DNA of 64,000 bases, from NCBI RefSeq assembly GCF_001598215.1, contig NZ_BCXJ01000001.1:1178001-1242000 (forward strand), given 5' to 3'. The translations under genes and the position numbers were made by a program. Shown here in pieces: positions 46,696 through 48,225 of this stretch (its first letter is position 1; every line of letters begins with the position of its first letter). The DNA comes from Shouchella clausii (GTDB lineage Bacteria; Bacillota; Bacilli; Bacillales; Bacillaceae_D). Below the pieces are notes generated by a model. That model was given only the letters and a program-made list of their open reading frames with translations. It was not told the origin of the DNA and ran no database searches.

Positions 46696-46947
46696 TTAAG
46701 CGTTTAGCTTCGACGTGTGAATGAAAGTAATGTCTCCTTTATCACGTTCGTCAATGGAAGTGATGTCTCCTTTATCGTGGCTGCCAATGAAAGTAATATC
46801 TCCTTTATCACTGCTGTCAATGAAAGTAATGTCTCCTTTATCGCGGCTATTCATTTCACTGTCAGCCTGTGTGTTTGTAAAAACAACGAATGAAGCTGCT
46901 GCGATTAAAGAGACGCCAAGTGAAACGAACAACTTTTTCTTAAACAA
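46696..46947 (-). CDS. Phr signalling-peptide precursor with four tandem DKGDIT copies
   Basis: An 83-residue exported precursor from TTG 46947; AGGAG (46961-46957) lies 9 bases upstream, whereas TTG 46956 directly abuts it. The N-terminal 28 residues form a signal peptide (FKKKLFVSLGVSLIAAASF). The mature part is four 11-residue repeats, each holding DKGDIT: SRDKGDITFID, SSDKGDITFIG, SHDKGDITSID and ERDKGDITFIH. Phr peptides are 5-6 residues with a basic residue at position two (for example ERGMT of PhrC), which DKGDIT fits. The start overlaps the 3' end of rap, the normal rap-phr layout. Single-copy precursors are usual, so four copies is the odd feature. The mature form is inferred. Confidence 0.85.
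   Translation of the reverse strand: MFKKKLFVSLGVSLIAAASFVVFTNTQADSEMNSRDKGDITFIDSSDKGDITFIGSHDKGDITSIDERDKGDITFIHTSKLNA
46720..46843 (-). repeat. 33-bp tandem repeat array inside phr
   Basis: A near-identical 23-base block (ATGAAAGTAATGTCTCCTTT plus ATC on the forward strand) recurs at 46721, 46754, 46787 and 46820, an exact 33-base period. Variation is confined mostly to the spacer codons. The high DNA identity suggests recent unit duplication. Confidence 0.95.
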
Positions 46948-48034
46948 CTGAATCAACTCCTAAAGTATGTTGGTATAAGCGTGCACCATGGGCCACTTTC
47001 ATATATTTCAATGCAAGTCTAGTATTTCCTTCCTTTTCTGCAAAGTGAGCGGCTTCTTCAGCAAGTTCACTCACCTCAAAGTCCATTCCTTCTTTTTGGA
47101 GCTGTGCAATCGCTTCGTCAACCAAATCATAGTTTTTTTCGATGTGAAGGCCTTCCGTAAACAAGCAGCGCGCATTGTATTCTTTGCTTTCGTAGTAGGC
47201 GGCACCTGCTTTTGCAATTTGGAAATGGGGGAGGGCTTCTTCGATTTTTCCTTGATTAAAGAGGACGTTACTTAAATTGTATCTGGATTTGGCACCGAAA
47301 ATCGTGTTTTTGTGCTCAGGAATGTCAAGCGCTCGTTTAAAATACGTTTCCGCCTCGTCAAACTTTTTTTGGCCCTGCTTGTTTAAACCTAGCGTCCGCA
47401 ACACTTGTCCATATACAATTGGAATGCCTTTAGCACGTTCTAGCGCCTGTTTTAGGATGGCTTCGCCTTTTTCAGGGTTGTTTAACTCTTGATGAATACA
47501 GGCAGTGATAATTTGGCAGTTTATCGCGGGCTCATGATATTGAAGCCGATCGAATAGGACGTTTGCTTGTTCCATGTAGGACGAAGCAATCAAATAGTGG
47601 TTCAGCCGATAATAAACAAGGCCAATATATTGATAAAATTCCGCTTCCTCCGCCTCGTCGTTTACGTATTCTAGTAGTCGTTCGGCTTTGCGAAATAGCT
47701 CTACAGCAGACCGGTACCGTTCTTGCGTAAACTCGTATTGACCGTTAACAAAGTAATAGAGATACGTGAGAAGGTCATCAATTTCGGTCTTTTCAGAAAT
47801 CGGTTCTATTTTCTCAGGGCATTCGTTTTTATCGTAACGGCTGACTAAAATCTGATGTTTAAATTCGACTAGTGAGTAGAAGGCCATAAACTTGTCGCTT
47901 GGATCCATCGCTGGTAGAAGCTGTTTGACCTCCTCTTTTAAAAGAATCGCCTGTTCATATGACTTCGAAAGAAGGCAACTATACCATTCTGCGATCTTTG
48001 CCCCAACCGATTCTGAACTTATCGTCCTCCCCAT
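46940..48034 (-). CDS. Rap family TPR response-regulator aspartate phosphatase or regulator
   Basis: A 364-residue Rap protein. The N-terminal three-helix bundle (about 1-85; VGAKIAEWYSCLLSKSYEQAI, FMAFYSLVEFKHQ) binds response regulators in the family. The C-terminal part is six to seven TPR repeats (about 90-350; AEFYQYIGLVYYRLNHYLIASSYMEQA, KKFDEAETYFKRALDI) that bind the Phr peptide. Rap proteins dephosphorylate Spo0F or block ComA and other regulators; the target here is not known. ATG 48034 follows TAGGAGGTTGGTTTT. The Phr precursor overlaps its 3' end. Confidence 0.92.
   Translation of the reverse strand: MGRTISSESVGAKIAEWYSCLLSKSYEQAILLKEEVKQLLPAMDPSDKFMAFYSLVEFKHQILVSRYDKNECPEKIEPISEKTEIDDLLTYLYYFVNGQYEFTQERYRSAVELFRKAERLLEYVNDEAEEAEFYQYIGLVYYRLNHYLIASSYMEQANVLFDRLQYHEPAINCQIITACIHQELNNPEKGEAILKQALERAKGIPIVYGQVLRTLGLNKQGQKKFDEAETYFKRALDIPEHKNTIFGAKSRYNLSNVLFNQGKIEEALPHFQIAKAGAAYYESKEYNARCLFTEGLHIEKNYDLVDEAIAQLQKEGMDFEVSELAEEAAHFAEKEGNTRLALKYMKVAHGARLYQHTLGVDSVV
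47006..47032 (-). promoter_or_regulatory. Candidate SigH promoter for phr inside rap
   Basis: On the reverse strand GAAGGAAAT (47032-47024) fits the SigH -35 consensus RWAGGAWWT, followed after 13 bases by TGAAA (47010-47006), a 4/5 match to the -10 HGAAT. It lies about 60 bases upstream of phr, within the rap coding sequence, where several B. subtilis phr genes also have a SigH promoter. Confidence 0.5.
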
Positions 48035-48225
48035 AAAACCAACCTCCTAATGAATCCCATTTATATTCATATAATAGCAAAGAAAATAGGACTTGCCTAC
48101 TATTATAAGAATTTTCCCCAAAGTTATAAAACGTTACCTCTGAAAACAAAATAGGAACATGTCATTTTGCGAATCATCTTGATTTTGACAATAGGCTTGC
48201 CATTATCAAACGGAGGATGTTTTAG
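48035..48225. other. Divergent intergenic region of rap and cggR, left part
   Basis: AT-rich, no gene. It should hold the rap promoter on the reverse strand. A reverse TATAAT is present around 48102-48097, but no matching -35 was found, so no promoter is called. Confidence 0.4.

Follow-up and report, generated by a model that had tools for sequence, protein, structure and literature searches.

Phr precursors that hold several copies of their signal are already a known kind, having been reported repeatedly between 2016 and 2024. Duplicated Phr coding regions were described in 2016 (Even-Tov et al. 2016, PMC5199041), with B. clausii included in the legend to S11A Fig, which mentions six Raps of that species and the duplication of autoinducers; up to six copies per precursor were recorded in 2022 (PMC9765709); and in 2024 the maturation of internal copies by extracellular proteases was reported, with as many as eight copies cited (PMC11343458). 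The sections of PMC10075063 available to us hold nothing on repeats within a single precursor. Since the multi-copy Phr was described in 2016 and tested in 2024, it is not in itself novel, and the first-pass annotation of the locus considered here, which held that Phrs contain one peptide and rarely two, is outdated in the light of these papers.

That locus lies in a 64,000-nucleotide stretch of Shouchella clausii DNA, which we call the window. B. clausii is now classed in Shouchella, and nothing on Rap-Phr was found in literature under that genus name. The locus is of the same lineage as the B. clausii Rap-Phr set of 2016, for which autoinducer duplications are likewise described; unlike the treatment of that set in the sections of PMC5199041 that we draw on, the present work compares copy number among species. 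Phr105-Rap105 of phage phi105, grouped here with the RapK2 systems, also joins a Rap receptor to a precursor that repeats an identical hexapeptide (ERPVGT, twice), and its internal identical copies are reported to be matured by supernatant proteases (PMC11343458). It differs in that it has two copies, one of them C-terminal, with Arg at position 2, whereas the window precursor has four, none of them terminal, with Lys at position 2 and a Glu in the receptor. RapK2 responds to hexapeptides and not to pentapeptides (PMC5199041), and single-pheromone precursors with C-terminal extensions are published (PMC11343458).

The window locus is very probably a chromosomal Rap-Phr quorum-sensing pair with a four-copy DKGDIT precursor, a judgement founded on sequence comparison. 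The rap gene (46940-48034, minus strand, ATG start) encodes a 364-aa Rap-family TPR receptor according to Pfam, PDB and fold matches. Its product combines the RapH_N three-helix domain (Pfam E value 2.3e-23, 82.4 bits against a cut-off of 27) with the TPR models of the superhelix, and it matches the RapI, RapJ, Rap3T, RapF and RapH chains among PDB sequences (E values 1e-29 to 2.2e-21). An AlphaFold model built from 6 sequences has a mean pLDDT of 66, with residues 45-146 below 50; its best 23 matches among solved structures are all Rap chains, on which it superposes with an rmsd of 13-18 A, and because the model is weak and the rmsd large we use it only as agreement on family. Upstream of rap there is a promoter-like site (TTTATA-17-TATAAT, 10/12, 48102-48130, minus strand), a consensus match only; promoter-like sites in the region number 7, against a shuffled mean of 3.3 (sd 1.8), and no terminator-like site was found in the region searched.

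The phr gene (46696-46956, minus strand), predicted to encode a secreted signal precursor, overlaps the 3′ end of rap on the same strand, by 17 nt if read from its first TTG (86 aa) or by 8 nt from the TTG at 46947 (83 aa). The first TTG immediately abuts AGGAG. We prefer the second (46945-46947, minus strand), because it lies 9 nt after AGGAG and the open frame of a relative, L008, begins at that codon. From its first codon, TTG, the precursor reads MIQLFKKKLFVSLGVSLIAAASFVVFTNTQADSEMNSR-DKGDIT-FIDSS-DKGDIT-FIGSH-DKGDIT-SIDER-DKGDIT-FIHTSKLNA: a basic N-terminus leads into a hydrophobic stretch and then into four exact copies of DKGDIT with 11-residue spacing. A putative Sec signal peptide (46864-46947, minus strand), proposed from the sequence alone, would likely be cut after TQA (residue 31 in the 86-aa reading). 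The copies begin at residues 39, 50, 61 and 72 (46825-46842, 46792-46809, 46759-46776 and 46726-46743, respectively, all minus strand), and TRF finds a 33-bp unit in 3.7 copies at 46720-46842 (score 162), a 66-bp period scoring 207. The first-pass annotation had recognized the cassette with its overlapping genes and the four 11-residue repeats, and was likewise accurate in noting that S follows the third copy and that SR, SS, SH and ER precede the four. Each copy offers the short signal of five or six residues with a basic position 2 that marks a Phr. The C-terminal position of the signal, typical of Phrs and not defining, is absent here, where the tail FIHTSKLNA follows the last copy, so every copy would need a C-terminal cut. 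Chance can be ruled out as the origin of the repeat: in 20,000 residue shuffles no 6-mer occurred more than twice, and of the window's stop-to-stop frames that reach 40 aa or more (762 in all), just 2 contain any 6-mer at least three times, namely phr and a plus-strand frame whose threefold VMSPLS is the antisense of the DKGDIT repeat.

The identity of the mature signal, proposed by the first-pass annotation to be DKGDIT, is supported by the ends of related precursors, the conservation of the core and a Glu at the anchor position of the receptor. Within a clade of 12 Raps around the window gene, eight have single-copy precursors (35-46 aa), six of which have the corresponding hexapeptide as their very end (DKVDIS in L006, DKAEMT in L007, DKADIS in L008, DKGDMT in L009, and DKVEIS in both L015 and L016); these ends place the C-terminal edge of the signal at T, with the F or S outside. 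The remaining two, L013 and L014 (the nearest paralogue), have one internal EKVDIT, then F, so the internal position is probably older than the expansion. Three distinct DKGDIT precursors were compared (the copy in genome G011, identical in DNA to that of the window, was omitted), and their cores gave a pS of 0.371 and a pN of 0.011 (13 units) and their spacers a pS of 0.370 and a pN of 0.266 (10 units), values that are descriptive only since repeat units share ancestry. With replacement changes in the spacers running at about 0.7 of silent changes, the suggestion that flanking residues tune cleavage finds no support.

PhrG of B. subtilis derives from a single-copy precursor, and its peptide is different from DKGDIT. 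RapG-PhrG is like the window pair in that the receptor has a Glu for the Asp anchor and the second residue of the peptide is Lys; in RapF, the basic residue at this peptide position is anchored by Asp194 (PMC3601957). In the window Rap, Glu183 stands at the position of RapF Asp194, so that an acidic anchor is present, and DKGDIT supplies Lys2. Measured against the RapF anchor set (PMC3601957), Tyr152 is retained, Asp194 and Asp338 have become Glu, and Tyr66, Gln183, Arg223 and Gln263 correspond to Arg66, Asn172, Gln210 and Lys249; since several anchors are replaced, the binding mode must partly differ. RapF Asn227, an anchor that is typical and not defining, is Thr214 in the window Rap. The N227A change abolishes PhrF binding (PMC3601957), and the position is changed in many Bacillus Raps, all six of B. 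clausii included (PMC6123732).

We compared these positions across the genus in a sample of 97 Rap matches from 13 genomes, of which 5 are paralogues from the window genome that were fetched later and the other 92 fall in 90 loci. One Rap was parsed per locus, and omission of 15 under 345 aa left 75, or 80 with the 5 paralogues; counts of called Phrs, of multi-copy precursors (at least two copies in one precursor, with up to two mismatches allowed) and on the tree rest on the 75, for 70 of which a Phr was called. The RapF-194 position is Glu in 67 of the 75 full-length Shouchella Raps, Ile in 5 and Asp in 3. By a lenient criterion, a basic residue after Phr position 25, such a residue accompanies Glu194 in 62 of 62 called Phrs (62 of the 67 Raps have a call, one of which, L106, looks spurious), Asp194 in 3 of 3 and Ile194 in 0 of 5; since all five Ile194 Raps fall in one clade, the Lys-Glu pattern does not represent many independent events. 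In a sister genus, Phrs were called beside 13 Glu194 Raps, and 3 of them (L135, L138 and L140) end in GQANTGR, with no Lys2. The Phr C-termini of the Ile-anchor clade (L072, L075, L076, L081 and L085; for example, YVHPIGGH) do not have the usual basic residue, possibly a case of co-change between receptor and signal. In L004, the six-copy orthologue from genome G001, one unit reads DQGDIT, which would drop the Lys-Glu contact; we regard it as a candidate degenerate or altered signal. Asn is kept at the RapF-227 position in 18 of the 80 Shouchella Raps. Loss of the Asn227 anchor therefore does not account for the repeats as a compensation: 13 of the 21 multi-copy Raps have kept Asn, as against 5 of the remaining 54.

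In an ungapped alignment (MEEDQDLHLYYSL in RapF, MDPSDKFMAFYSL in the window Rap), Asp47 takes the place of the catalytic Gln47 of Spo0F phosphatases. Not one of the 80 full-length Shouchella Raps has Gln there (Asp in 64, Glu in 15, Lys in 1), while two further genera in this family, sampled with 23 Raps, show Asp in 15, Gln in 3, Glu in 2, Arg in 2 and Pro in 1. We found no mention of position 47 in the B. clausii Rap literature, as represented by the available sections of PMC5199041 and PMC6123732. From the RapH variants described below, Asp, which is one carbon shorter than Glu, would be expected to give little or no phosphatase activity of the Gln type, and, given Asp47, we do not file this protein with the Rap phosphatases (RapA/B/E/H/J type). 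With the catalytic Gln changed in every Shouchella Rap examined, the product name "aspartate phosphatase" may mislead.

Such a Rap might bind its regulator without dephosphorylating it, the peptide then relieving a steric block. This reading is compatible with the Rap-Phr pair that we favor, and we consider it quite possible, if somewhat short of probable. Besides the residues found at position 47 here and throughout the genus, it draws on work with RapH, whose Q47N form shows no catalysis in vitro but still prevents phosphotransfer and for which Gln or Glu at 47 is termed a requirement (PMC3035606), and on the Spo0F-facing residues Y53, L55 and F58, which are kept in the window Rap, L50 being Met. 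The same Q47N protein is intermediate in vivo, where its function is lost only in part, and Q47E is fully active (PMC3035606), so the window Rap may yet have activity; also against the idea, RapH Glu45 is Pro here, so that the loop may differ, and confidence in the AlphaFold model is low around position 47. That steric inhibition has replaced dephosphorylation is, we think, a weaker conclusion than the export, proteolysis, re-import and target release expected from the family. Spo0F binding by the window Rap remains likely, since positions 53, 55 and 58 are kept and the genome encodes a Spo0F-like protein; the TPR-side contacts (RapH 96, 134, 137 and 175) lie outside the reliable mapping, RapF numbering being different.

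By analogy with the family, a Rap-Phr pair of this sort would operate as follows. The precursor would be exported by Sec, extracellular proteases would cut on either side of all four DKGDIT copies, and the hexapeptide would re-enter through an oligopeptide permease and bind the TPR groove, where Lys2 would form a salt bridge with Glu183; the Rap with bound peptide would then release a response regulator, most likely Spo0F. The genome encodes a Spo0F-like regulator (57% identity), along with 5 subtilase and 12 SBP_bac_5 matches, the roles of all of these being predicted. It is plausible that four copies raise signal output, and we suggest, more weakly, that a higher ratio of peptide to receptor per translation event, that is, dosage, is the reason for the repetition. 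Gain or loss of a 33-bp unit would change the copy number, and four DKGDIT precursors at one chromosomal place hold 4, 4, 6 and 3 copies (the window included) beside Raps that are 97-99% identical. This natural series could serve to test copy number as a setter of quorum threshold, a question raised by the 2024 work (PMC11343458).

The same series bears on a second explanation, in which the Rap-Phr pair is as we describe it and the repeats, built of 33-bp units prone to slippage, are only transient as signals diverge, with copy number nearly neutral. In its favor are the variation from 3 to 6 copies beside almost identical receptors and the single DQGDIT copy in G001, and a duplication-divergence model of signal specificity has been proposed (PMC5199041). 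Across the genus, multi-copy Phrs make up 21 of the 70 called: DKGDIT (3, 4, 4 and 6 copies), GKHDFH (3, 5, 5 and 6), GKHEFT (6), DKADGR (2 in three precursors, 3 in one), PKQEF (3 in each of three precursors) and five two-copy precursors, of which three are of the KHEH type and the others have PKHDFE and GKGDFE. Two findings speak against the passing-state explanation: measurement of four multi-copy families shows that cores stay alike despite silent changes (overall pN from 0.000 to 0.030), and in a second Rap clade of 22 members, 17 are multi-copy, 4 are single-copy and 1 has no called Phr, which argues that the multi-copy state lasts. We think this explanation rather unlikely.

Phrs of the GKHDFH, GKHEFT, DKADGR and PKQEF types share with the window precursor the gene order, 2-6 identical or nearly identical copies and Lys2; unlike it, they sit elsewhere on the Rap tree and have other peptides with a spacing of 8-16 residues. 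Loci L074, L082 and L086-L088 carry GKHDFH in 3-6 copies with alternating 9/8-residue spacing and GKHEFT in 6 copies with 16-residue spacing. The multi-copy state requires at least four changes on the tree, and because the window group and the clade with 17 of 22 multi-copy members lie far apart, the simplest view is that it arose at least twice; a single gain followed by losses is the alternative. Elsewhere, a survey of 311 Rap propeptides of atypically large size reported repeats in 5, a sampling unlike the present genus count (PMC9765709). On a larger scale, we speculate that Shouchella and a sister genus share a Rap branch with Asp or Glu at 47 and Glu at 194 that reads Lys-type signals. 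In place of the Gln-type phosphatase mechanism, these Raps would act by steric block or acid-assisted hydrolysis, and the number of repeats in the precursor (3 to 6 here) would set a threshold that can evolve; taken as a whole, this proposal is improbable.

A structural surface motif, which the first-pass annotation had named among the outcomes that would overturn its signal reading, or a wall-binding motif is very improbable, for although a secreted short-repeat protein can in principle be structural and this one has a C-terminus without any copy, the gene occupies the usual Phr position overlapping rap, the clade's single-copy relatives are 35-46 aa long with six of eight ending at the hexapeptide, and the precursor has no Pfam or NCBIfam match above curated cut-offs.

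The window assembly (G000) and G011 belong to one species, and the Rap of Shouchella tritolerans FJAT-45399 is 99% identical to that of the window. The neighboring genes, which from their translations we take to be clpP, rpoN, a glutaredoxin-like gene and cggR-gapA-pgk, recur: rpoN/glutaredoxin-like gene and cggR flank the DKGDIT-type locus in all four genomes that have it. Neither plasmids (240 records) nor phages (23 records) gave a Rap match of 60% identity or more, and the matches listed stand at 28-30% (8 from plasmids) and 26.5% (5 from phages). Given this placement and the distance of plasmid and phage Raps, we reject an origin of the locus in a mobile element.

Other arrangements of the two genes occur in the genus. 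No phr was called downstream of L064-L066 and L127, Raps closely related to one another, which have Glu47 and are possibly orphans. An extra phr-like gene lies within 450 nt of 9 of the 70 Raps, where whole-gene duplications of phr stand behind one rap (L006, L020, L025, L026, L027, L080, L083, L085 and L107), L025 having two extra genes.
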